A stretch of 64,000 nucleotides of DNA from assembly GCF_013167955.1 (NCBI RefSeq), contig NZ_BLWF01000001.1:1-64000 (forward strand), written 5' to 3'. The translations under genes and the position numbers were made by a program. Every line of letters starts with the position of its first letter. Positions within the stretch are counted from its first letter, which is position 1. The notes beneath the pieces are model-generated. The model had not been told where the DNA came from and ran no database searches. It was given only the letters and a program-made list of their open reading frames with translations. The stretch comes from Thermanaeromonas sp. C210. Its GTDB lineage: Bacteria > Bacillota > DSM-521 > Neomoorellales > Neomoorellaceae. Below are positions 12,184 to 28,076 of the stretch, one piece after another.

Positions 12184-13710
12184 ATGGCACAAGAAATTAA
12201 ACACCTGGAAATGCGGGGAATTACCAAGAGATTTCCCGGTGTGCTGGCTAACGACCATGTGGATTTGGAGATACGGGCAGGGGAGGTTTTAACCCTCCTG
12301 GGCGAGAACGGGGCCGGTAAAACAACTTTGATGAGCATTCTATACGGACTTTACCAGCCCGATGAAGGGGAAATTTTGGTGAACGGGAACCCCGTCAAGA
12401 TAACCTCTCCCCGGGCGGCAATGGAATTGGGCATTGGGATGGTGCACCAGCATTTTATGCTGGTGCCCACCCTTACGGTGGCTGAAAATGTGGCCCTGGG
12501 CTCTCCCCCGCGCAAAGGCGCCTTTGTGGACCTCCAGAAGGTCAGCAGGGAAATTGAGGAAATTTCTAGGACCTATGGTTTAGGTATACAGCCGGATGCA
12601 TATGTGTGGCAACTTAGCGTAGGGGAACAGCAGAGGGTGGAGATCGTCAAAGCCCTTTATCTGGGCGCCAGCCTTCTCATCCTTGACGAACCTACCGCCG
12701 TGCTAACCCCCCAGGAAGCCGGGGAACTTATAGCTCTGTTAAAAAACATGGCCCAGCAAGGCCGCCCTATCGTATTTATCAGTCATAAGCTCAACGAGGT
12801 TATGGCAGTGAGTGATAGGGTGGCCGTCCTGCGAGACGGCAGGGTGGTTGCTACCCTGCGTACGGCGGAGACCTCTGCCCAGGAGCTGGCCCGCCTGATG
12901 GTGGGGAGGGAGCTGACCTTTAGGCCTACCAAAAGCCAGTCGGCTCCCGGTGAGACGGTGTTAAGCCTGAAGGAAGTGTGGGCCTCCGGTGATAAGGGAA
13001 CCCCCGCTCTAAGGGGATTGTCGTTGGACCTGAGACGGGGAGAGATAATGGGTATAGCGGGTGTCTCCGGCAACGGACAGAAGGAGTTGGCCGAGGTTAT
13101 AAGCGGGTTAAGAAGAGTGGTTAAGGGGCAGATCCTGCTAAACGGTAGAGAGGTCACCAACTTTTCGCCGGAAAAAATGATTAAGGAAGGTCTGGGCTTC
13201 ATACCCGAGGACCGGCTGCACGTGGGGACCATTCCCTCCTTTGCCGTGTGGGAAAACCTCATCCTGAAGGACCACGACCAGCCGCCCTATGCTCGGGGTA
13301 TTTTCCTCCAGAAGCAAAGCATAAGGTCGCAGGCAGCGTCCTTAGTAGAGAGTTACGGGGTTAAAACACCTACCCTGGATACTCCAACCGGCCGCCTGTC
13401 CGGCGGTAACATCCAGCGGTTGATATTGGCCCGGGAGATTACCCGCCAACCTTCCGTCTTAGTGGCCGCCTACCCGACCCGCGGGCTGGATGTCGGGGCT
13501 ACGGAATACGTCCACATGAAGCTCATGGAGGCCCGGGATAACGGTATGGGCGTGCTGCTGATCTCGGAAGACCTGGAGGAGATAATGAACCTCTCGGACC
13601 GAATTGCTGTGATTTACGAGGGCCGGATTATGCGGGTGATGACCGCAGAAGAGGCCGACGAACGCACCTTAGGCCTGCTCATGGCGGGCGTTGCCCAGGA
13701 GGCTTCCTAA
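12184..13710 (+). CDS. BMP-family ABC transporter ATP-binding protein (two NBDs)
   Basis: 508 aa, the double-domain form used by nucleoside and simple-sugar importers. The first domain has Walker A GENGAGKTT at 40-48, signature LSVGEQQRVEI and Walker B LLILDEPTAVL. The second has the usual weak Walker A (GVSGNGQKE) and signature LSGGNIQR. It belongs to the damaged transporter locus but is itself full length. SD GGGGAAG and ATG 12184. Confidence 0.9.
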   Translation: MAQEIKHLEMRGITKRFPGVLANDHVDLEIRAGEVLTLLGENGAGKTTLMSILYGLYQPDEGEILVNGNPVKITSPRAAMELGIGMVHQHFMLVPTLTVAENVALGSPPRKGAFVDLQKVSREIEEISRTYGLGIQPDAYVWQLSVGEQQRVEIVKALYLGASLLILDEPTAVLTPQEAGELIALLKNMAQQGRPIVFISHKLNEVMAVSDRVAVLRDGRVVATLRTAETSAQELARLMVGRELTFRPTKSQSAPGETVLSLKEVWASGDKGTPALRGLSLDLRRGEIMGIAGVSGNGQKELAEVISGLRRVVKGQILLNGREVTNFSPEKMIKEGLGFIPEDRLHVGTIPSFAVWENLILKDHDQPPYARGIFLQKQSIRSQAASLVESYGVKTPTLDTPTGRLSGGNIQRLILAREITRQPSVLVAAYPTRGLDVGATEYVHMKLMEARDNGMGVLLISEDLEEIMNLSDRIAVIYEGRIMRVMTAEEADERTLGLLMAGVAQEAS

Positions 13711-13907: not shown

Positions 13908-15809
13908 ATGTCTGCTCGTTTGGGCCTCGTGGCTCCCTACGGGGGGCTGGCTGAGCTCGCCCACGAAGTTTGCCGGGAGCTGGGCCTGCAGGCCACGGTG
14001 GCGGTCGGTGACCTGGCGGAAGGGGTCAGGGTGGCCCGCGATCTGGTGGCTCGAGGCATTGAGGTCATCGTCAGCCGGGGCGGTACTGCCACAGCCATCG
14101 GCCGGGAGCTTGACGTGCCCGTGGTAGAGATCGCCGTCAGCGCCTTCGACCTAGTGCGGGCCCTGGGCGCTGCACGCACTTACGGCAGCCGTATAGGGGT
14201 AGTGGGTTTCCGGAATGTTATTTACGGCTGCAAGAGCCTGGAAGAGATTTTGGGGGTGCGCATTCAGGAGATCGAGATTAAGACCGAGGAAGAGGCGCCG
14301 GCGGCCATTTCTGCGGCCCGCGAAGCAGGTATCCAGGTCATAGTGGGGGATGCGGTTTCGGTACGGTTAAGTAAAGAGCTGGGCCTCCACGCCATTCTAG
14401 TGACCTCGGGTAAGGAAGCCATAGGCCTGGCCCTGCGTGAAGCCGAAGAGCTGGCGGAAGTACGCCGGAAGGAGCGGGCCCGGGCGGAGCAGTTCAAGGT
14501 AATTCTGGACTTTACCTACGAGGGCATTATAGCTACCGACCCGGAAGGCCGGATTTCCCTGGTAAACCCGGCGGCGGAAAAGATCTTAGGCGTGGCGGAG
14601 GGCCATCTGGTGGGCCGTCCGGCCGGGGAGGTTTTGCCGGGGCTGGCCCTTCAGCAGGTGCAGAGCACGGGTAAGCCGCGGTTGGGCGAACTGCACCGGG
14701 CGGGCAGCTCGCTGGTAGTACAAAACGTGGTCCCGGTAATCGCCGACGGGGAGATTGTAGGAGCGGTGGCCACCTTTCAGGATGCGAGTCACCTCCAGGC
14801 GGTGGAAGCCAAAGTGCGCCAGGAACTGTATCTTAAGGGGCACGTAGCCCAATTTACCTTTGCCGACATGGTGACCGGGAGCCCGGCCATGCAGCGGGTG
14901 ATTGCCCAGGCTCGGGAGTTCGCCGCCGTTGAAGGTACTATACTCATCACCGGGGAAACGGGGACCGGGAAGGAAATGCTCGCCCAGAGCATCCACAACG
15001 CCAGCCGGCGGAGGAACGGCCCTTTTGTAGCAGTGAATTGCGCCGCCGTGCCCGAGAGCTTGCTGGAAAGTGAACTGTTCGGCTACGAAGAAGGAGCCTT
15101 CACAGGGGCGCGCAAAGGAGGCAAGAAAGGCTACTTCGAGCTGGCCCACCGCGGCACCCTCTTTTTGGACGAAATAGGGGAACTGCCGCTTAATTTGCAA
15201 GCCCGGCTCCTGCGCGTGCTGCAGCAGAGGGCCGTAATGCGGGTGGGGGGCGACCGGGTCATACCGGTGGACGTGCGCATTATCGCCGCCACCCATCGGG
15301 ACCTGGAAAAAGCCGTCCGGGAGGGAAGTTTCCGGCAGGACCTATATTACCGTTTGAATGTTTTGCGCCTGTCCCTGCCTCCCCTGCGGCAGAGGGGCGA
15401 GGATATCCCCCACCTGGTAGGGCGGCTGGTGGACAAAATCTGCCGGCGCACGGGCCGCCTTCCGCCGCGGATGGGGCCCGAGATCCTGCGGGTCTTTCAG
15501 CACTACCCCTGGCCGGGTAACGTTCGGGAGCTGGAGAATGTCCTTGAGCGGCTAGTGGTCCTGCGGAGCGGCCTGGAAGTAACCCCGGAAGATCTGGAAG
15601 ATCTGTTGGATGCCCGTGGGGTTGTGGAGCAAGTAGATACAGAGGGCCTGAAATTGGAGGTGAGGGGAACCCTGAACGATATGGAGAAGGCCATTATATG
15701 TGCTGTCCTGGAGGAAACCGGGTACAACCGCCAAGCAACGTGCCGCCGGCTGGGCATTAGCCCGGCCACCCTTTGGCGCCGCATGAAGGCCTGGGGTATT
15801 GCAAAATGA
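13908..15809 (+). CDS. sigma-54-dependent activator with PrpR_N and PAS domains
   Basis: Enhancer-binding protein that hydrolyses ATP to open sigma-54 RNA polymerase complexes. 633 aa: PrpR_N-type sensor (about 1-185, SRGGTATAIGRELDVPVVEI), PAS (about 195-300), AAA+ core with Walker A GETGTGKE near 350 and GAFTGA near 396, and a Fis-type HTH at the end (RQATCRRLGISPATLWRRMKAWG). GAFTGA, which contacts sigma-54, is intact. PrpR_N domains bind small carboxylates or sugar phosphates. It sits directly upstream of a -24/-12 promoter and the operon starting at 16005. Confidence 0.93.
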   Translation: MSARLGLVAPYGGLAELAHEVCRELGLQATVAVGDLAEGVRVARDLVARGIEVIVSRGGTATAIGRELDVPVVEIAVSAFDLVRALGAARTYGSRIGVVGFRNVIYGCKSLEEILGVRIQEIEIKTEEEAPAAISAAREAGIQVIVGDAVSVRLSKELGLHAILVTSGKEAIGLALREAEELAEVRRKERARAEQFKVILDFTYEGIIATDPEGRISLVNPAAEKILGVAEGHLVGRPAGEVLPGLALQQVQSTGKPRLGELHRAGSSLVVQNVVPVIADGEIVGAVATFQDASHLQAVEAKVRQELYLKGHVAQFTFADMVTGSPAMQRVIAQAREFAAVEGTILITGETGTGKEMLAQSIHNASRRRNGPFVAVNCAAVPESLLESELFGYEEGAFTGARKGGKKGYFELAHRGTLFLDEIGELPLNLQARLLRVLQQRAVMRVGGDRVIPVDVRIIAATHRDLEKAVREGSFRQDLYYRLNVLRLSLPPLRQRGEDIPHLVGRLVDKICRRTGRLPPRMGPEILRVFQHYPWPGNVRELENVLERLVVLRSGLEVTPEDLEDLLDARGVVEQVDTEGLKLEVRGTLNDMEKAIICAVLEETGYNRQATCRRLGISPATLWRRMKAWGIAK

Positions 15810-15947: not shown

Positions 15948-15963
15948 TGGCACGCATCTTGCA
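15948..15963 (+). promoter_or_regulatory. sigma-54 (-24/-12) promoter
   Basis: TGGCACGCATCTTGCA matches the consensus TGGCACGN4TTGCA at every fixed position; GG of -24 is at 15949-15950 and GC of -12 at 15961-15962. Transcription would start near 15973, about 30 bases before ATG 16005. Confidence 0.92.
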
Positions 15964-16004: not shown

Positions 16005-17342
16005 ATGGAGCGTATTGCTATCATTGCCGACGATCTGACCGGAGCCAGCGACACGGGCATCCAATTTCGCAAATACGGTCTGGAAACCCTGGTCATTGTG
16101 GACTACCAGAATATTGACGGTGGGGATACAGGAAAACAAGTATGGTCCGTCAATGCCGACACCCGCTCTCTGTCGGCCGCAGAAGCCTACGGGCGGGTGT
16201 ACTCCGTGGCTAAAAAATTAAAGGCCCTGGGCTTTAAACGGATTTATAAAAAGCTCGATTCCACCCTGCGGGGGCACCCGGGAACCGAACTGGAAGCGGT
16301 TATGGATGCCCTGGTGGCCGACGTGGCGGTAGTAGTACCCGCTTTTCCGGCCAACGGCAGGGTAATGGTCAAGGGCCGCCTTCGTTGGGGTTCCGCCGCC
16401 GCACCGGGGATAGCTGGAACTAAGGAGAGCGATGACCCGCAGCAGGGAAGTACCTGTGATGTGCCCGGCCTCCTGCAAGGGAGCATGGGGCGGCAAGTGG
16501 GGAGCATCCACCTGGAAACGGTACGGAGGGGAGAAGAAGAACTGGCCCGGGCCATGGAGGCCCTGCGGCAGGAAGGGAAGGAGGTACTGGTGCTGGATGC
16601 GGCTGAGGAGGAGGATCTGGCGGCGATTGCCCGGGCTTGCAGTACGTTAAAGGGCGAAATAGTGATAGCCGGGGCAGCGGGACTGGCCGCTCACCTGCCT
16701 GCCGCTTGGGGCTTGATACCTCCTGCCTCCCCGGCCGTCCTTCCCGGCGGCCTTACCCTCCTCGTGGCCGGGTCGCGGAACCCCGTTACGGCCGGGCAGG
16801 TCCAGCAGGTATTGGGAGGTTGCCGGGCCACCCTGGTGAAGGTGGCAACGGCAGCCGTGGCCGCGGGCCGAGGGGCCGAAGAGGTGGAGAAGGCGGTGGC
16901 GGCGGTCCAAACCCTCTTGTCGTCGGAGGGGCCTGCTCTCCTGGTCGTAGCGGTGGACAGCCTGTGGGAGGCCGGCGGCGCGGATAACGTGGAAACCGAG
17001 GGGGCCTCACCCCAGAGTAAGGCCGTTGCTGGGGTCCTGGCAGAAATTGCCCGCCGGGTGGTGGCAGGAGGGCGGGTGCGCAGTCTCGTAGTTACCGGGG
17101 GGGACACGGCCGTACATATCTGCCGGGCCTTGGGAGCCAGGGGCATTGACCTCGACACTGAACTGCTGCCGGGTATTCCCCTGGGGCGGCTCTTGGGGGG
17201 AATGGCCGACGACCTCCCCGTAGTGACTAAGGCGGGGGGCTTTGGTCCGCCGGACGCCTTTGTAAGGGTGGTGGAGTACCTACAGGATCCCGGTCTGGCG
17301 GTAATAAGCGGTAATAAAAGGACGAACCTCGAAAGGAGATGA
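16005..17342 (+). CDS. DUF1537 four-carbon acid sugar kinase (OtnK/DtnK-like)
   Basis: Kinase that phosphorylates threonate- or erythronate-type acids at C4. 445 aa from ATG 16005; a GTG at 15981 lies almost at the transcription start and is unlikely. The N-terminal motif ADDLTGASDTG, then KKLDSTLRGHPG, and in the C-terminal half VAGSRNPVTAGQ and VTGGDTA with TKAGGFG are those of the family. The PdxA2-like partner follows after 6 bases. Together they convert a C4 acid to its 4-phosphate and then by oxidation and decarboxylation to dihydroxyacetone phosphate. The exact acid is not known. Confidence 0.87.
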   Translation: MERIAIIADDLTGASDTGIQFRKYGLETLVIVDYQNIDGGDTGKQVWSVNADTRSLSAAEAYGRVYSVAKKLKALGFKRIYKKLDSTLRGHPGTELEAVMDALVADVAVVVPAFPANGRVMVKGRLRWGSAAAPGIAGTKESDDPQQGSTCDVPGLLQGSMGRQVGSIHLETVRRGEEELARAMEALRQEGKEVLVLDAAEEEDLAAIARACSTLKGEIVIAGAAGLAAHLPAAWGLIPPASPAVLPGGLTLLVAGSRNPVTAGQVQQVLGGCRATLVKVATAAVAAGRGAEEVEKAVAAVQTLLSSEGPALLVVAVDSLWEAGGADNVETEGASPQSKAVAGVLAEIARRVVAGGRVRSLVVTGGDTAVHICRALGARGIDLDTELLPGIPLGRLLGGMADDLPVVTKAGGFGPPDAFVRVVEYLQDPGLAVISGNKRTNLERR

Positions 17343-17348
17343 TGCTGA

Positions 17349-18386
17349 GTGACCAGGCCTATTATTGCTATCACCGTGGGAGATCCCTGCGGTATCGGCC
17401 CGGAAATAACCGCCAAGGCCCTGGCCTTGGCGGAAATATATGAGCGCTGCCGCCCCCTGGTAGTAGGCGATGCGGGCTTGATGTGCGAGGCAGCCAGGAT
17501 TGCCGGTGTAAAACTGGAAGTCAGGCCCGTAGAGCATCCGGCCCAGGGGCGCTATGAGTACGGCGTTATGGATGTTCTAGACCTGCAAAATGTAGATTTA
17601 AGCCGCCTGGAATACGGCAAGGTTACTTCATTGGGAGGGGAGGCCAGCTTTCAATATATAGCCAAGGCCATCGAGCTGGCCCTGGCCGGGGAGGTGGATG
17701 CCGTCACCACCGGCCCCATCCATAAGGAAGCTATAAACCTGGCGGGCCACCACTACGCGGGGCATACAGAAATTTTTGCCGACCTCACCAAGACTAAGGA
17801 TTACTGCATGATGCTAATCGACAAAAATTTCCGGGTTTCCCACGTGACCACCCATGTGGCCCTCAGCCAGGTGCCTTCCCTGGTAACCAAGGAACGGGTC
17901 CTCAAAGTAATCGAACTCACCCATGAAGCCCTCCTCAGAATGGGTATAGCCCAACCCCGCATAGCCGTGTCCGGCCTGAACCCCCATGCCGGCGATGGGG
18001 GCCTCTTCGGCCGGGAAGAGATCGAGGAGATCGGTCCCGCCGTGGAAGAGGCCTGCCGCAAGGGTATGGCTGTGGACGGGCCCCTCTCCCCGGATACGGT
18101 CTTCGTCAAGCTCCAGGGCGGCCAGTATGACGCCGTAGTGGCCATGTACCACGATCAGGGGCATATTCCCACTAAAATTGTGGGATTTCGCTACGACAAT
18201 GCTACCGGCACCTGGGGGTCCGTGGCCGGGATAAACGTTACCCTGGGCCTGCCCATTATCCGGACCTCGGTGGACCACGGTACGGCCTTTGGCAAGGCAG
18301 GCAAGGGAACGGCTAATCCCGAAAGCATGGTCGACGCCATAAAGCTGGCCGCCGACCTGGCCTGCGGAGGAAGGCCGGCCGACTAA
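17349..18386 (+). CDS. pdxA2: PdxA2-like 4-phospho-acid dehydrogenase
   Basis: PdxA-family NAD-dependent, metal-dependent dehydrogenase/decarboxylase. 345 aa. The metal-binding histidines appear in YAGHTEIFADL, MYHDQGHIPTKI and RTSVDHGTAFGKAG; the N-terminus is ITVGDPCGIGPEI. Next to a DUF1537 kinase it is expected to act on a threonate- or erythronate-4-phosphate rather than in pyridoxal synthesis, and no other B6 gene is near. GTG start, AAAGGAG upstream. Confidence 0.87.
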   Translation: MTRPIIAITVGDPCGIGPEITAKALALAEIYERCRPLVVGDAGLMCEAARIAGVKLEVRPVEHPAQGRYEYGVMDVLDLQNVDLSRLEYGKVTSLGGEASFQYIAKAIELALAGEVDAVTTGPIHKEAINLAGHHYAGHTEIFADLTKTKDYCMMLIDKNFRVSHVTTHVALSQVPSLVTKERVLKVIELTHEALLRMGIAQPRIAVSGLNPHAGDGGLFGREEIEEIGPAVEEACRKGMAVDGPLSPDTVFVKLQGGQYDAVVAMYHDQGHIPTKIVGFRYDNATGTWGSVAGINVTLGLPIIRTSVDHGTAFGKAGKGTANPESMVDAIKLAADLACGGRPAD

Positions 18387-18411
18387 ATAACAGCCGACGG
18401 GAGGTATAAAA

Positions 18412-19434
18412 ATGAAGGCCGCCGTTGTAACCGAACCTTATAAAGTAGTCCTCCAGGACATTGATGACCCCGTGGTGGGTCAGCGGGACGTGCTAATCCG
18501 GGTTAAGGCCACCGGCATCTGCGGTTCCGACCTTCACCTCTATAAGGGAGCCCACGCTTTCCGCAAGTTGCCTGCCATTTTAGGCCACGAAGTAGCCGGT
18601 GAAGTGGTAGAGGTAGGCTCCAAGGTAACCCGCTTTAAGCCGGGCATGGCCGTCACCGTGTTGCCCCAGATCAGCTGCGGGAACTGTACGGCCTGCCGCA
18701 GGGGATACTTCAACATTTGTCCCCAGAAGACGGTGCCCGGGACCCCTGCCTGGCAGGGCACCTTTGCCGAATATTTTATAGCCCCGGAGGATGCAGTATA
18801 TCCCCTGCCCGCCGGGGTGGACTACCTTGCCGGATCCCTGGCCGAGCCCCTGGCCGTGGCCGTCCATGCAGCCGGGAGGGCCGAGCTGAAGGGGAGGAAA
18901 AGGGTGGCCATTTTGGGTTCGGGCACCATCGGCCTCCTCGTCCTGGCCGTGGCCAAGCATTACGGGGTAAAGGAAATAATAGCCACCGACGCCTATGATT
19001 ATAATTTAGGCGTGGCGCGGAAAATGGGCGCCACGGTTACCATTAACGCCCTCCGCGAAGACGTGGCGGCTAAAATCGACGAACTTACCTCAGGGGAAGG
19101 GGTGGAAGCCGTAATCGTAGCGGCCAGCGCACCCGGCATAATCGACCAGGCCGCTGCCATTGCTGCCCGGAGGGGCACCATCGCCTTAGTGGCTATGATT
19201 TCTCAAGCCATTCCGGTAATGACCTACACTTTTGTGTACAAAGAGCTGGAGTTGAAGGGTTCCCAGACGTACACGGCCAGCGATTTCGAGGCGGCCCTCG
19301 ACCTTCTGGCAGCAGGTGCCGTTCCGGTGGCCGAAGTAGTAACCAAGACCGTTGACTTTAAGGATACGGCCAGGGCTTTAGAGATACTGGACAAGCGCCT
19401 GGAAGAAGCCGTCAAAATCGTCGTTACCCTTTAA
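18412..19434 (+). CDS. zinc-dependent alcohol/polyol dehydrogenase 1 (MDR family)
   Basis: 340 aa medium-chain dehydrogenase. Catalytic zinc ligands Cys37 and His59-Glu60; structural zinc Cys89, Cys92, Cys95, Cys103 (CGNCTACRRGYFNIC). NAD-binding GSGTIGLL near 165-172. It is closest in pattern to the sorbitol/threonine dehydrogenase group. It likely oxidises a polyol or hydroxyacid to feed the kinase/PdxA2 pair. Substrate unknown. GGGAGG precedes ATG 18412. Confidence 0.85.
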   Translation: MKAAVVTEPYKVVLQDIDDPVVGQRDVLIRVKATGICGSDLHLYKGAHAFRKLPAILGHEVAGEVVEVGSKVTRFKPGMAVTVLPQISCGNCTACRRGYFNICPQKTVPGTPAWQGTFAEYFIAPEDAVYPLPAGVDYLAGSLAEPLAVAVHAAGRAELKGRKRVAILGSGTIGLLVLAVAKHYGVKEIIATDAYDYNLGVARKMGATVTINALREDVAAKIDELTSGEGVEAVIVAASAPGIIDQAAAIAARRGTIALVAMISQAIPVMTYTFVYKELELKGSQTYTASDFEAALDLLAAGAVPVAEVVTKTVDFKDTARALEILDKRLEEAVKIVVTL

Positions 19435-19473
19435 GCGGTATGGAAAATAAAGACTCTGGAGGAGGCGAGCGGC

Positions 19474-20514
19474 ATGGAAAAGATGAAGGGGCTGGTAAAG
19501 GTCAAACCGGAACCGGGGGCTGAACTTCTGCACGACTTGCCGGTGCCCGAAGTCAAGGGGGACGAGATCCTGGTCAAGGTAAAGTGCGCGGCTATCTGCG
19601 GCACCGACCTGCACATCTATGACTGGACACCCTACGCCCAGCAGCGGGTCAAGCCCCCCATGGTTTTCGGGCATGAATTCAGTGGGGAAGTAGTGGAAGT
19701 AGGTCCGGAAGTAAAAAAATTTAGAGTAGGGGACCGGGTGGCCGGAGAGACTCACATCGCCTGCGGCATGTGCTTCCAGTGCGAAACGGGGAACGCCCAT
19801 ATTTGCGAGAGCATGAAAATCATAGGCGTTCACACTGAGGGGTGCTTTGCCGACTATATTAAAATCCCGGCCGGCTGCGGCTGGAAGCTGGCGGATTCCG
19901 TTTCCTATGAAGTCGGGGCCCTCCTGGAACCCCTGGGCGTGGCCGTGCACAGCGTGCTGGCCGACGCCGTAAACGGCATGTCGGTGGTAATTTACGGCTG
20001 CGGGCCCATCGGGCTAATGGCCGTCAATGTGGCCAGTGCCTGCGGCGCCACCCGGGTCATTGCCGTGGAGCCGGTGGCCGAGAAGTTGGCCATCGCCAAA
20101 AAAATGGGCGCCACCCACACTCTGCAGCCGGGTAAGGATGATGTCATCGCAGGGATCTTAGACCTAACGGGAGGGAGGGGTGCAGATGTAATCGTAGAGT
20201 TATCCGGCAACGTACAGGCCATTAGCGAGTGCTTCCGGGGACTGCGCAAGGGAGGTCGGGTGACCCTGGCCGGCCTGCCCAACGGTCCGGTTACCCTGGA
20301 TTTAGTCGACGGCGTGATTTATAAAGAAGCCAAAATCCTCGGGGTAACCGGCCGGAGGATGTACGACACGTGGTGGCAAATCGAAGCATTGCTGGGGGCC
20401 GGCAAGCTGAATTTGGAGCCCGTTATCGGGGGTATCTTCCCCTTGGAGCGGTACCAGGAGGCCTTTGCGGCCCTCCACGCAGGCAGGCCCGGCAAGATGC
20501 TTCTCACGATTTAA
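19474..20514 (+). CDS. zinc-dependent dehydrogenase 2, threonine 3-dehydrogenase-like
   Basis: 346 aa MDR dehydrogenase resembling L-threonine 3-dehydrogenase over its full length (AICGTDLHIYDW, VFGHEFSGEVVEVG, GRRMYDTWWQ). Catalytic zinc ligands Cys42, His67, Glu68; structural zinc Cys97, Cys100, Cys103, Cys111. NAD motif GCGPIGLMA. In this operon it more likely oxidises a C4 substrate than threonine, but that is inference. It differs markedly from dehydrogenase 1, so the two are not a recent tandem copy. Confidence 0.83.
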   Translation: MEKMKGLVKVKPEPGAELLHDLPVPEVKGDEILVKVKCAAICGTDLHIYDWTPYAQQRVKPPMVFGHEFSGEVVEVGPEVKKFRVGDRVAGETHIACGMCFQCETGNAHICESMKIIGVHTEGCFADYIKIPAGCGWKLADSVSYEVGALLEPLGVAVHSVLADAVNGMSVVIYGCGPIGLMAVNVASACGATRVIAVEPVAEKLAIAKKMGATHTLQPGKDDVIAGILDLTGGRGADVIVELSGNVQAISECFRGLRKGGRVTLAGLPNGPVTLDLVDGVIYKEAKILGVTGRRMYDTWWQIEALLGAGKLNLEPVIGGIFPLERYQEAFAALHAGRPGKMLLTI

Positions 20515-20576
20515 AGGCTTTAACAAGAAGGCAGTGGCCCGGCAAGGGCTAAACTAGAGGGAGGAGGTTGCAGTTC

Positions 20577-21587
20577 ATGAAGAAGTACCTGAGCTGGATA
20601 CTAGTTGCCCTGGTGCTCGGCCTTCTGGTGAGCGGCTGCGGCGGCGGCCAGGATACCCAACAGAGCGGGAACGGGGAGGGCGAGCCCATTGTATTAAAAC
20701 TAGGCCATATCCAGACCCAGGAAGATTTGTGGCAGCTCGGGGCCGAGCGGTTCGCCCAATTGGTGGCCCAAAAAACCGGCGGGCAGGTCAAGATAGAGAT
20801 TTATCCCAATTCCACCCTCGGTGGGGACCGGGACATGGCCGAGGGAATGCAGATGGGATCCGTAGATTTCGCCCTTATTGCCGGGGTATTGGGCAATTTC
20901 GAAAAGTCATTCCAAATATTGGAACTACCGTATCTCTTTGAAAACGAGGAGCACCTGCGCAAGGTCATCTACGGCCCGATAGGCCAGGAGCTTTTGGAAA
21001 GGTTGCGTACCAACGCCAACATCCGGGGCCTGGCCTTCTGGGAAAGGGGTTCCCGCCAGCTTACTTCCAACAAGCCCATCAACTCCATAGAGGACATTAA
21101 AGGGCTAAAAATCCGGGTGCCGGAAATACCCGCCATGGTAGAGGCCTGGAAGGCCATGGGGGCCAATCCGACTCCGATGGCCTGGTCCGAGGTGTACAGC
21201 GCCCTGGAGCAAAACGTAATAGAGGCCCAGGAAAATCCGATACCGTATATTTACGCCGGGAATATCCATGAGGTCCAAAAGTATCTGGCCATAACCAACC
21301 ACAAGTACGAGTACGTTGTCTTGTGTATGAGCGAGCTGACCTACAACAAACTAACGCCGGAGCAGCGCCAGGCCATTGAGGAGGCGGCGGCTGAGGCCAC
21401 CGAGTACGAAAACCAGCTGGTGAAGGAGAAGACCGAGGAATACCTGGAGGTCATGAAGTCCAAGGGCATGCAGGTAACCTATCCGGACATCGGGCCCTTT
21501 AAGGAGAAGGCCCAGACCGTCCACCGGAGCTATGCCGAGCAATTGGGCCTCGTGGACCTGTATGAAAGGATAGTCAATGCCAAGTAA
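20577..21587 (+). CDS. dctP: TRAP transporter substrate-binding protein DctP
   Basis: Extracytoplasmic lipoprotein that binds an organic acid for the TRAP carrier. About 336 aa from ATG 20577; an in-frame TTG at 20568 is too close to GAGGAGG. Signal peptide with lipobox LLVSGCGGG, then the DctP fold (LKLGHIQTQEDLW, GLKIRVPEIPAMVEAWKAMGA, ALEQNVIEAQENP). The arginine in IRVPE is the usual carboxylate anchor. It fits uptake of the C4 acid handled by the upstream enzymes. Confidence 0.92.
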   Translation: MKKYLSWILVALVLGLLVSGCGGGQDTQQSGNGEGEPIVLKLGHIQTQEDLWQLGAERFAQLVAQKTGGQVKIEIYPNSTLGGDRDMAEGMQMGSVDFALIAGVLGNFEKSFQILELPYLFENEEHLRKVIYGPIGQELLERLRTNANIRGLAFWERGSRQLTSNKPINSIEDIKGLKIRVPEIPAMVEAWKAMGANPTPMAWSEVYSALEQNVIEAQENPIPYIYAGNIHEVQKYLAITNHKYEYVVLCMSELTYNKLTPEQRQAIEEAAAEATEYENQLVKEKTEEYLEVMKSKGMQVTYPDIGPFKEKAQTVHRSYAEQLGLVDLYERIVNAK

Positions 21588-21659
21588 CCCCTGCCAAGTC
21601 TTAGCGCCGGGGTCCCCGGGAGGGGCCCCGGCTAAAATTAAGAAGGGTGAGCATGAGCT

Positions 21660-22163
21660 ATGGGTGTCCCGCAATCCAGAGGGCCTTTAGCCGTCCTGGA
21701 GACGGCAGCCCGGGGGTTATCCCTCCTCCTGGGGGTCCTGATGCTGTTGATGGTCGTGGTAATCTTCGCCCAGGTTATAGCCAGATACGTGTTGCACAAT
21801 TCCCTTTCCTGGTCGGAGGAGATCGGCCGCTATCTCTTCATCTGGATAACCTTTTTGGGTGCGGTGATAGGGGTCAAGGAAAGGCTGCACGTGGGGGTGG
21901 ACGTAGTTGTAAATGCCGTGCCCCCCGGGGTCCGGAGAATCCCGGTACTGGTGGGCAATTTGCTCATGATTGTTTTCGTCGCCTATATGTTGCAGGGCAG
22001 CTTTAAGCTGCTGGAGCTCGGTCGGCACCAGGTCAGCCCGGCCACGAGCATTCCCATGCTGTACCCCTACCTGATCTTGCCCCTGGCGAGCATCCTCATG
22101 CTGGTTTATCTTCTCGTAAATGCGGTCCTCGACTGGATAAACGTGGGGGGCGGTAAGTCTTGA
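21660..22163 (+). CDS. dctQ: TRAP transporter small permease DctQ
   Basis: 167 aa with four hydrophobic segments and the family motif LSWSEEIGRYLFIWITFLGA near 50-70. It forms the small membrane subunit of the TRAP carrier. Its last bases overlap the start of dctM. Confidence 0.9.
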   Translation: MGVPQSRGPLAVLETAARGLSLLLGVLMLLMVVVIFAQVIARYVLHNSLSWSEEIGRYLFIWITFLGAVIGVKERLHVGVDVVVNAVPPGVRRIPVLVGNLLMIVFVAYMLQGSFKLLELGRHQVSPATSIPMLYPYLILPLASILMLVYLLVNAVLDWINVGGGKS

Positions 22164-23434
22164 CGGCCATTCTCTTTGGAGCCTTTATTGTGCTCATACT
22201 CCTGGGGGTTCCCATCTCCTTTGTCCTGGGTATTGCCGCCACCCTGGGATTGGTAGCGGCAGGGAATTACCCTATGCAGGTGGTTATCCAGCGCATGTTC
22301 GCCGCCGTAAATTCATTTCCCTTTATGGCCATTCCCTTTTTTATGGTGGCCGGGGAAGTGATGAGCCGCGGAGGCATTACCAAGAGGATCATAGATTTCG
22401 CCCTGGCTTTAGTCGGCAGATTTAAGGGCAGCCTGGCCCATGTCACCGCCGTGACGGGGGTAATCATGGGGGGGATATCGGGCTCGGGAGTGGCCGATAC
22501 GGCGGCCATCGGCTCCCTCATGGTCCCGGAAATGGCGCGCAGGGGATATGACAAGGCCTTTTCGGCGGCACTGACGGCCGTGGCGGGAAGTATCGGGCTT
22601 ATAATTCCTCCCAGCATTGCCCTTATCCTGTATGGGGTGACCGCCCAGGTTTCCATAGGGGATCTCTTCTTAACAGGCATAATACCCGGGGTGTTAATCG
22701 GACTGGGGCTTATGCTTGTTTCCTATATTGTTGCCAATCGCGAAAATTATCCTGTGGAAGAAGCCGTTTCGTGGAAAGAAAAGCTGGTCCGGTTTAAGGA
22801 CGCCATATGGGCCCTCATGATGCCCGTTATTATCATCGGCGGTATAAGGGGCGGCATATTTACGGCTACGGAAGGCGGGGCAGTGGCGGCTGTTTACGCC
22901 ATTGTAGTGAGCCTTTTTGTCTACCGGGAGATGACTTTGAAGGACCTGTTCGCCGCCCTGGTGGAGGCGGGGAAAAAGACGGCCATTATCGGCTTCCTCA
23001 TCGCCACCTCTTCCTTGTTCAGCTGGATCCTGGCCAGCGAGCGCATTCCGGAGCAAATAACGTCCTTCATCGTTTCCCTGACGGACAACAAATACATGAT
23101 TTTACTTTTAATCAATATTTTGCTGCTCCTGGTGGGAACGGTTTTGGACAGCGGGCCGGCCATCATCCTGCTGGTGCCCATCCTCGTCCCGGTGGCCAAG
23201 TCTTTGGGCATCGATCTGGTGCAGTTCGGGCTTATTATGGTAATCAACCTGACCATCGGCCTCCTGACGCCGCCGGTGGGGACTGCCCTGTATGTGGCCT
23301 GCAATATCAGCGGCCTGCCGCTGTTAACCTTAAGCCGGGCAGTGCTAAAATTCCTGGCGGTAATGCTGGTCGTCCTTTTCCTCATGACCTACGTACCGGC
23401 CCTCGCCCTCTTGCCCCTCCAGTTGGGTCAATAA
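22160..23434 (+). CDS. dctM: TRAP transporter large permease DctM
   Basis: 424 aa, about twelve membrane segments, sodium-coupled carrier subunit. Conserved stretches include FPFMAIPFFMVAGEVM, GGISGSGVADTAAIGSLMVPEM and NLTIGLLTPPVGTALYV. TTG start at 22160 overlapping the dctQ stop (TTGA). Last gene of the sigma-54 operon; a terminator follows. Confidence 0.93.
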   Translation: MTAILFGAFIVLILLGVPISFVLGIAATLGLVAAGNYPMQVVIQRMFAAVNSFPFMAIPFFMVAGEVMSRGGITKRIIDFALALVGRFKGSLAHVTAVTGVIMGGISGSGVADTAAIGSLMVPEMARRGYDKAFSAALTAVAGSIGLIIPPSIALILYGVTAQVSIGDLFLTGIIPGVLIGLGLMLVSYIVANRENYPVEEAVSWKEKLVRFKDAIWALMMPVIIIGGIRGGIFTATEGGAVAAVYAIVVSLFVYREMTLKDLFAALVEAGKKTAIIGFLIATSSLFSWILASERIPEQITSFIVSLTDNKYMILLLINILLLLVGTVLDSGPAIILLVPILVPVAKSLGIDLVQFGLIMVINLTIGLLTPPVGTALYVACNISGLPLLTLSRAVLKFLAVMLVVLFLMTYVPALALLPLQLGQ

Positions 23435-23486: not shown

Positions 23487-23520
23487 AAACCCCACAGCCT
23501 CGAGGCAGCTGTGGGGTTTT
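23487..23520 (+). terminator. terminator after dctM
   Basis: AAACCCCACAGC / GCTGTGGGGTTTT hairpin. Its stem is nearly the same as that of the terminator at 24434-24470 on the other side of the HEPN/MNT pair. Confidence 0.88.
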
Positions 23521-23688
23521 GTCGTGTGCCCGGCATGGGCGTTAACCCGGTGGTGAAGGCAGGTGCAGGGGAGGCGACGGCCCAAGTGTAAGCATAGCTT
23601 CCGGACCATTCAAGCAGTAGGAAGGGAAAAACAATTGTGATATAATGAAAACAGTTACTGCGGCCGAGGGCTAAAGGAGTGACCGGTT

Positions 23689-24090
23689 TTGCCTCCTAGG
23701 TATCAGGATTGGCTTAAACAAGCAGAGCGCGATCTTAAGGCTGCCCAAGACAGCCTCCGGGCGGAGAACTATGAATGGGCTGTATTCCAAGCCATCCAAG
23801 CTGCAGAGAAGTCCCTAAAGGCTGTCCTTCTTTTTTGTGGTAGAGTGGTGCGGGGCCATTCCTTAAAACACCTTTACCACCAGCTAAAATCCGCCGCCGA
23901 TCTTGGTATCCCGGAGGAGACGTTGGCTGAGCTGGACAGGCACTACATCACTACGAGATACCCGAACGGGTTTGCTGAGGGCTACCCGGGAGAATATTAT
24001 AGCGAGGCGAAGGCCAGGGAGTGCATAAACTATGCCCGAGCGGTGGTGGAGAAGGCCGTATCGTTCCTATCGGAAACACCCCAACTATAA
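23689..24090 (+). CDS. HEPN-domain protein (toxin partner of an MNT pair)
   Basis: 133 aa HEPN protein. Family pattern WLKQAERDLKAAQDSL, QAIQAAEKSLKAVLLF and RGHSLKHLYHQL, the last containing an R-x5-H of the kind found in active HEPN ribonucleases; whether it is catalytic here is unclear. TTG start with AAAGGAG and a TATAAT at 23641 upstream. It overlaps the MNT gene. Such two-gene units are often toxin-antitoxin or abortive systems in thermophiles. Confidence 0.82.
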   Translation: MPPRYQDWLKQAERDLKAAQDSLRAENYEWAVFQAIQAAEKSLKAVLLFCGRVVRGHSLKHLYHQLKSAADLGIPEETLAELDRHYITTRYPNGFAEGYPGEYYSEAKARECINYARAVVEKAVSFLSETPQL

Positions 24091-24427
24091 AGAGCTGGAC
24101 ACCTTTGTACAACAGCTTTGTGCGGAGCATAAACCTGAGCTGATACTGCTCTTTGGTTCAGGAGCGCGAGGAGACTATACCGAGGAAAGCGACCTCGATG
24201 TGTTAGTGGTTCTTGACAAATTGAAAGAAAATACTTGGCAGGAGGTATACAAGCATTCTCGGGGGACCGTACTGCCGGTGGTATGGCCGAAAGAGCGCCT
24301 ACTACAAGAACTGAAGAACAACAATGATTTTTTGAGAACTGTGATAGAGGAAGGCATTTTTTTGGCCGGGGATAGAGATTGGTGGGACGGACTAAGGAAG
24401 GAATTTAAGAGTGAATACAGCGGATAA
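24032..24427 (+). CDS. MNT-type minimal nucleotidyltransferase (antitoxin partner)
   Basis: 131 aa. The polymerase-beta-like active site is clear: GSGARGDYTEESDLDVLVV (GS-x-...-DxD) near residues 41-59. ATG 24032 is the only in-frame start before it, giving a 59-base overlap with the HEPN gene, longer than usual. MNT proteins can AMPylate their HEPN partner. Codon use is less GC-rich than in neighbours, which suggests transfer. Confidence 0.82.
   Translation: MPERWWRRPYRSYRKHPNYKELDTFVQQLCAEHKPELILLFGSGARGDYTEESDLDVLVVLDKLKENTWQEVYKHSRGTVLPVVWPKERLLQELKNNNDFLRTVIEEGIFLAGDRDWWDGLRKEFKSEYSG

Positions 24428-24524: not shown

Positions 24525-28076
<3,552 letters not shown>

Follow-up and report, generated by a model that had tools for sequence, protein, structure and literature searches.

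A sigma-54-controlled operon of Thermanaeromonas sp. C210 with a candidate route for C3 redox epimerisation of a four-carbon sugar acid

In the window studied here, the first 64,000 nucleotides of contig NZ_BLWF01000001.1 of Thermanaeromonas sp. C210, we find on the forward strand an operon which codes for a DUF1537-family kinase (KIN), a PdxA-like dehydrogenase, two zinc dehydrogenases (ADH1 and ADH2) and a tripartite ATP-independent periplasmic (TRAP) importer (DctPQM), and which is preceded by the gene of a sigma-54 dependent activator (REG). Our preferred reading, to which we give a probability of roughly 0.4, is that this sigma-54-controlled operon serves the catabolism of a small hydroxy acid and that a tetronate (C4 aldonic acid) of 3S configuration would be epimerised at C3 by ADH1 and ADH2 before it enters the kinase/PdxA route. 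The original prediction for this stretch knew of no described system with this set of genes and spoke of a candidate new route. In the openly licensed literature searched, the combination indeed seems to be without a description; "new route" appears too strong, as the parts are familiar and kinase and PdxA are of known types. The anaerobic use of such sugar acids is, to our knowledge, little described. One of them, L-threonate, ranks among the main products of vitamin C degradation in plants (PMC12540250).

Layout and control of the operon

All seven open reading frames between 16005 and 23434 are intact, collinear and closely spaced on the same strand (Table 1), and their Pfam domains agree with the families which the original prediction had assigned to them. 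It had drawn the limits of the system at these positions; the seven genes lie within them, whereas regulator and promoter fall outside. The proposed control by sigma-54 was confirmed: an activator with PrpR_N, AAA and HTH domains is encoded ahead of the operon, and TGGCACGCATCTTGCA is the sole 12/12 match to the −24/−12 consensus when both strands of the 64 kb are scanned, with the ATG of the kinase 57 bp downstream. Equivalent elements precede the kinase gene in most relatives checked (loci are given as L numbers, genomes as G numbers), with scores of 11–12/12 in L094–L098, L137, L015, L022, L028, L031, L049 and L139 and weaker ones of 9–10/12 in L016, L018 and L149; at L099 no such element was found within the stretch scanned. 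REG, too, is conserved 5′ of kinase and PdxA in relatives. The stem–loop downstream of DctM is likely the terminator of the operon.

By the list of open reading frames and Pfam the operon holds no gene for an aldolase-type enzyme, an isomerase, OtnI or OtnC, and none for an aldehyde dehydrogenase or a lactonase. Enzymes dependent on pyridoxal phosphate are absent from this operon and from that at L137 (Pfam). The expectation that the operon would be catabolic and directed at a small sugar acid is supported.

The kinase–PdxA core, the dehydrogenases and the importer

The known route runs through a DUF1537 kinase, which forms 4-phospho-D-threonate (or -erythronate), and through PdxA2, which oxidises C3, whereupon CO2 is lost (PMC10079672, PMC10971088). 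DUF1537 kinases have been characterised as four-carbon acid kinases (PMC10971088), and according to the KEGG entry quoted in PMC13185595 PdxA2 acts on both 4-phospho-D-threonate and 4-phospho-D-erythronate. The operon has the adjacent DUF1537 kinase and PdxA-family dehydrogenase genes of the D-threonate pathway. Neither product passes its curated cut-off: KIN reaches 243 bits (cut-off 450) against the NCBIfam D-threonate kinase, its closest curated model, and the PdxA-like enzyme 329 bits (cut-off 583) against the D-threonate 4-phosphate dehydrogenase equivalog. The middle of KIN (about residues 118–150) is unusual; a frameshift or pseudogene is ruled out because six relatives with 52–53% identity are poorly conserved across the same stretch. 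The solved structures (PDB) closest to the PdxA-like enzyme are 4jqp, 2hi1 and 6e85. It carries about 11 extra residues after MYHDQGHIP, an insert which a pattern test found in 75 of the 85 retrieved homologs. A role in vitamin B6 synthesis was rejected as unlikely, since PdxJ (PF03740) has no match in the genome, which is 99% complete.

The same genome contains a second DUF1537–PdxA pair (L102, G000:C2:172000-190000), accompanied by an OtnC-like gene, several zinc dehydrogenases and a LarA-N-like protein; the PdxA of this pair is without the insert. In several bacteria, gut ones among them, kinase and insert-type PdxA are grouped with an iron-dependent alcohol dehydrogenase (Fe-ADH) and a DHDPS-family aldolase (L047, L048, L081, L093 and similar, L060, L082), and both partners were confirmed in L047 and L060.

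ADH2 is strongly similar to threonine 3-dehydrogenases (TDHs; 2d8a/2dfv, E 4e-99) and scores above the cut-off of NCBIfam NF003808 (395 bits, cut-off 380) and below that of TIGR00692 (407 bits, cut-off 458). It is separate from the true threonine dehydrogenases. In the tree, whose root side is not placed, a branch with 100/100 support divides the kinase-linked ADH2 proteins from the TDHs linked to Kbl, and ADH2 is changed at positions invariant or nearly invariant in 15 TDHs (N156V, D120H, S90A and N135C, the Asn at 156 being invariant). The best match to Kbl in the genome has 30 bits, the cut-off being 493. On these grounds, tree, residue changes and a genome without Kbl, we rejected the assignment of ADH2 as an ordinary threonine dehydrogenase. 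As it exceeds one curated TDH cut-off, this group could easily be given the wrong name in databases; the residues distinguish the two. Relatives of ADH2 at L178, L179 and L181 lie together with Asp/Glu-racemase family genes, at L178 and L181 also with threonine-aldolase-like genes, and these neighbourhoods possibly serve beta-hydroxy amino acid catabolism. For ADH1, a search of the class and of the families of G256 and G242 gave no orthologs at the thresholds used beyond those in Table 1; a 40% match in G006 has an unrelated neighbourhood.

The importer comprises the P, Q and M subunits, and Arg183 of DctP aligns with Arg147 of SiaP. The arginine at this position makes TRAP binding proteins carboxylate-selective (PMC4646407), and an acid is therefore the likelier cargo. 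The start of DctP is more likely the ATG at 20577 than the TTG at 20568. The predicted model of DctP has a mean predicted local distance difference test score of 74, with values that fall below 50 in part of the binding region. It resembles many TRAP binding proteins, those for sialic acid best, and thus does not name the ligand. DctP is 61–69% identical to the DctPs of L137–L139; the next group follows at 44–45%, and in L141 and L142 its members adjoin panB/panE-like genes, so named from sequence only. A scan of viral contigs with DctP gave no relative.

Gene neighbourhoods in relatives

The same eight-gene set, with the order of the two ADH genes swapped, is found at L137 in genome G256 of another family (regulator–kinase–PdxA–ADH2–ADH1–DctPQM; identities 33–70%). 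Because of this locus and of the overlapping subsets in other genomes the operon is not a chance assembly but a rare and recurrent combination. In L138 (G242) the genes downstream of ADH1 and DctPQM, the importer being 60% identical, code for a DUF1537 kinase that exceeds the 3-oxo-tetronate kinase cut-off (413 bits, cut-off 350) and for an OtnC-like decarboxylase below its own (169 bits, cut-off 250). The regulator and the kinase stand with DctPQM and an IlvD/Edd gene in L139 (G105), with PdxA and ADH2 in L177 (G309), with these and a DctP in L182 (G217), and with PdxA, ADH2, BKACE and DctPQM in L149 (G392).

Genomes of the same family keep regulator, kinase and PdxA (PdxA 79–83% identical) and differ in the partners, which are a GntP permease and a LarA-family gene in L094 and L095, and URO-D-like genes, a different TRAP importer, Fe-ADH and acetoin dehydrogenase subunit-like genes in L096–L098. 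Pairing of the kinase–PdxA core with LarA-type racemase families is also seen at L019 and L034. Of 66 loci where kinase and PdxA share a strand, which were chosen for the similarity of their PdxA or retrieved as neighbours, about ten have LarA-like genes, three an ADH1-like and three an ADH2-like gene. By analogy, LarA beside the same core would be an alternative change of stereochemistry, at C2; LarA homologs are known to epimerise 4-deoxy-threonate/erythronate (PMC11770544). If true, the scheme would be modular, with one kinase/PdxA core and interchangeable stereochemical adaptors (LarA or the dehydrogenase pair).

Three flanking features of the window may be mentioned. Just 3′ of the operon (23689-24427, forward strand) a HEPN-domain gene overlaps a nucleotidyltransferase gene, resembling a HEPN/MNT toxin–antitoxin pair. 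Directly 5′ of REG (12184-13710, forward strand) lies the ATPase gene of an ABC importer; its product has ABC_tran in two stretches and is similar to those of sugar/nucleoside importers. Convergent with the operon (24525-28055, reverse strand) is a reading frame of 1176 amino acids, which from its sequence resembles pyruvate:ferredoxin oxidoreductase.

Table 1. Features of the operon and its control region in the window
Feature	Position	Strand	Evidence
REG, PrpR_N-type sigma-54 dependent activator	13908..15809	+	Pfam PrpR_N, PAS, Sigma54_activat, HTH_8 (Fis-HTH); GAFTGA motif in translation
Sigma-54 −24/−12 promoter TGGCACGCATCTTGCA	15948..15963	+	12/12 consensus match
KIN, DUF1537 four-carbon acid kinase, D-threonate-kinase-like	16005..17342	+	Pfam SBD_N 192 bits, NBD_C 118 bits
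PdxA-like 4-phosphate dehydrogenase, insert subfamily	17349..18386	+	Pfam PdxA 370 bits
ADH1, zinc dehydrogenase	18412..19434	+	Pfam ADH_N/ADH_zinc_N; orthologs adjoin same TRAP importer in L137, L138
ADH2, threonine-3-dehydrogenase-like zinc dehydrogenase	19474..20514	+	Pfam ADH_N/ADH_zinc_N; NCBIfam NF003808, TIGR00692 matches
DctP solute-binding protein	20568..21587	+	Pfam DctP 324 bits
DctQ, small TRAP permease subunit	21660..22163	+	Pfam DctQ
DctM, large TRAP permease subunit	22160..23434	+	Pfam DctM, TIGR00786
Stem–loop with 3′ T-run, after DctM	23487..23521	+	Inverted repeat AAACCCCACAGC...GCTGTGGGGTTT, then TT

Proposed route, alternatives and known pathways

In the proposed route DctPQM would import the acid, most likely a 3S tetronate (L-threonate or L-erythronate), and ADH1 would oxidise its C3 hydroxyl to give the 3-oxo acid. 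ADH2, the putative TDH-like enzyme for 3R hydroxyls, would then reduce this acid to D-erythronate or D-threonate, the epimer with 3R configuration. The DUF1537 kinase would convert the epimer to the 4-phosphate, and oxidation at C3 by the PdxA-like enzyme with departure of CO2 would lead to dihydroxyacetone phosphate. As 4-phospho-D-threonate and 4-phospho-D-erythronate share the 3R configuration, C3 would be the centre which bars L-threonate and L-erythronate from this route. Formation of an oxo-tetronate by ADH1 fits, because L138 pairs it with OtnK/OtnC-type genes, and action of ADH2 at C3 fits, because L149 pairs it with BKACE, a family cleaving beta-keto acids. The 3R configuration assumed for the product of ADH2 fits its kinship to an enzyme whose target in (2S,3R)-threonine is the 3R hydroxyl; L-threonine and D-threonate, both (2S,3R), have isosteric C2 and C3 centres. 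That the dehydrogenases epimerise C2 instead is the less probable alternative, because the entry quoted in PMC13185595 gives both C2 epimers for PdxA2; with LarA paired to the core in relatives it is still conceivable. The more specific claim is tentative, and we would sooner doubt it than build on it: a pair of zinc dehydrogenases, one of the ADH1 family and one of a TDH-derived ADH2 family, would act as C3 epimerase and connect L-threonate/L-erythronate to the D-threonate/D-erythronate kinase–PdxA route without aldolase or isomerase, ADH2 having the new function of a 3-oxo-tetronate reductase.

The original prediction had outlined import, two oxidations, phosphorylation and oxidative decarboxylation. 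Import of a carboxylate, the kinase step and a decarboxylation probably leading to dihydroxyacetone phosphate are partly supported, and the absence of aldolase and isomerase is consistent with a PdxA2-type route. The order given for the dehydrogenases is not supported, because a tetronate oxidised twice would leave PdxA without the C3 hydroxyl that it needs; two oxidations ahead of the kinase work only for a polyol or aldose. Threitol or threose would then be oxidised twice to D-threonate, followed by kinase and PdxA. The chemistry is consistent for a polyol, and some zinc dehydrogenases turn aldoses into lactones, weak Glu_dehyd_C matches (Pfam) having been seen here. We nevertheless regard this as the least probable explanation: DctP retains the carboxylate-binding arginine (PMC4646407), ADH2 groups next to the threonine 3-dehydrogenases, whose substrate is oxidised at a secondary alcohol, and the operon has no aldehyde dehydrogenase or lactonase.

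Several observations weigh against epimerisation of a tetronate at C3. The full gene set was found only in the window and at L137, and two dehydrogenases need not act in opposite directions. The imported tetronate may already fit kinase and PdxA as D-threonate or D-erythronate, ADH1 and ADH2 being independent accessories which admit further related acids or remove by-products. The core apparently works alone in L018 and L022, which have regulator, kinase, PdxA and TRAP importer and neither ADH, and ADH2 occurs without ADH1 in L149, L177 and L182; however, two distant genomes combine ADH1 and ADH2 with the same importer, which suggests joint use, and we consider uncoupled accessories unlikely. 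Further points on the same side concern the identity of the substrate. Given the scores of KIN and PdxA below the equivalog cut-offs, the phosphorylated substrate could differ. The PdxA insert is missing from the aligned solved PdxA/PdxA2 sequences and has a conserved histidine nearby in the sequence, and this subfamily is found elsewhere beside DHDPS-family and Fe-ADH genes, that is, in other pathways. The nearest solved relatives of DctP, 4pc9/4pcd and sialic-acid binders, give no pointer to C4; 4pc9 and 4pcd presumably hold C6 aldonates. A larger or different hydroxy acid (a C5/C6 aldonate or a branched one), phosphorylated by the divergent kinase and used by the insert-bearing PdxA with a product other than dihydroxyacetone phosphate, would suit all this. 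Against it stand the characterisation of DUF1537 kinases as four-carbon acid kinases (PMC10971088) and the OtnK/OtnC-type pathway beside the same ADH1 and TRAP importer in L138, so that we find it rather improbable.

The Beta_elim_lyase (threonine-aldolase-like) and Asp/Glu-racemase-like genes near ADH2 relatives in L177, L178, L179 and L181 also count against the tetronate, as they hint at beta-hydroxy amino acids in those genomes. The substrate here might likewise be a beta-hydroxy-alpha-amino acid such as a stereoisomer of 4-hydroxythreonine. The dehydrogenases would act at its C3, the DUF1537 kinase would form 4-phosphohydroxythreonine and PdxA 3-amino-1-hydroxyacetone phosphate. ADH2 is threonine-dehydrogenase-like, PdxA acts on that phosphate, and the DUF1537 kinase STM0162, according to work cited in PMC10971088, phosphorylates 4-hydroxy-L-threonine. 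But neither the window nor the L137 operon has a pyridoxal phosphate enzyme, the importer is a TRAP system and not an amino-acid ABC importer, and ADH2 differs from TDHs at conserved positions; such a substrate is quite improbable.

Among known systems, the D-threonate/D-erythronate pathway of DtnK or DenK kinase and PdxA2, reportedly described by Zhang et al. in 2016 (cited in PMC10971088 and PMC10079672), shares with the operon a kinase directly preceding PdxA, the lack of an aldolase and dihydroxyacetone phosphate as expected product. The operon departs from it in the equivalog scores and the 11-residue insert and in that a pair of zinc dehydrogenases and a TRAP importer are added. The L-threonate/D-erythronate pathway employs LtnD/DenD, OtnI, OtnK and OtnC, and an OtnI-free bypass is also known (PMC12540250, PMC10580937). 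In common with it the operon has a predicted C4 sugar acid substrate, a dehydrogenase as first enzyme and a DUF1537 kinase; unlike it, the operon is without OtnI and OtnC, has a PdxA-like enzyme in place of the decarboxylase, and uses zinc dehydrogenases. L138 resembles a version of this pathway with ADH1 as dehydrogenase.

With the L-threonine 3-dehydrogenase/Kbl pathway the operon shares the fold of ADH2, its high similarity and the active-site His and Glu, both retained in the alignment; it differs by the missing Kbl, the separate kinase-linked group and Val156 in place of Asn. The LarA-superfamily 2-hydroxy acid racemases/epimerases (PMC11770544) are paired with the kinase–PdxA core in relatives, none being present in the window operon. 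The proposed epimerisation has its closest parallel in L-gulonate use by Haemophilus influenzae (GulPQM, GulD, UxuB), for which TRAP import and conversion of L-gulonate via D-fructuronate to D-mannonate are experimentally established (PMC5788505). There two opposed dehydrogenases follow TRAP import, reverse the configuration of a single carbon and pass the product on to a known pathway; by analogy the same would happen here. The likeness is one of logic only, as the L-gulonate pathway has a C6 substrate, inversion at C5 and a dehydratase with 2-keto-3-deoxygluconate (KDG) downstream.

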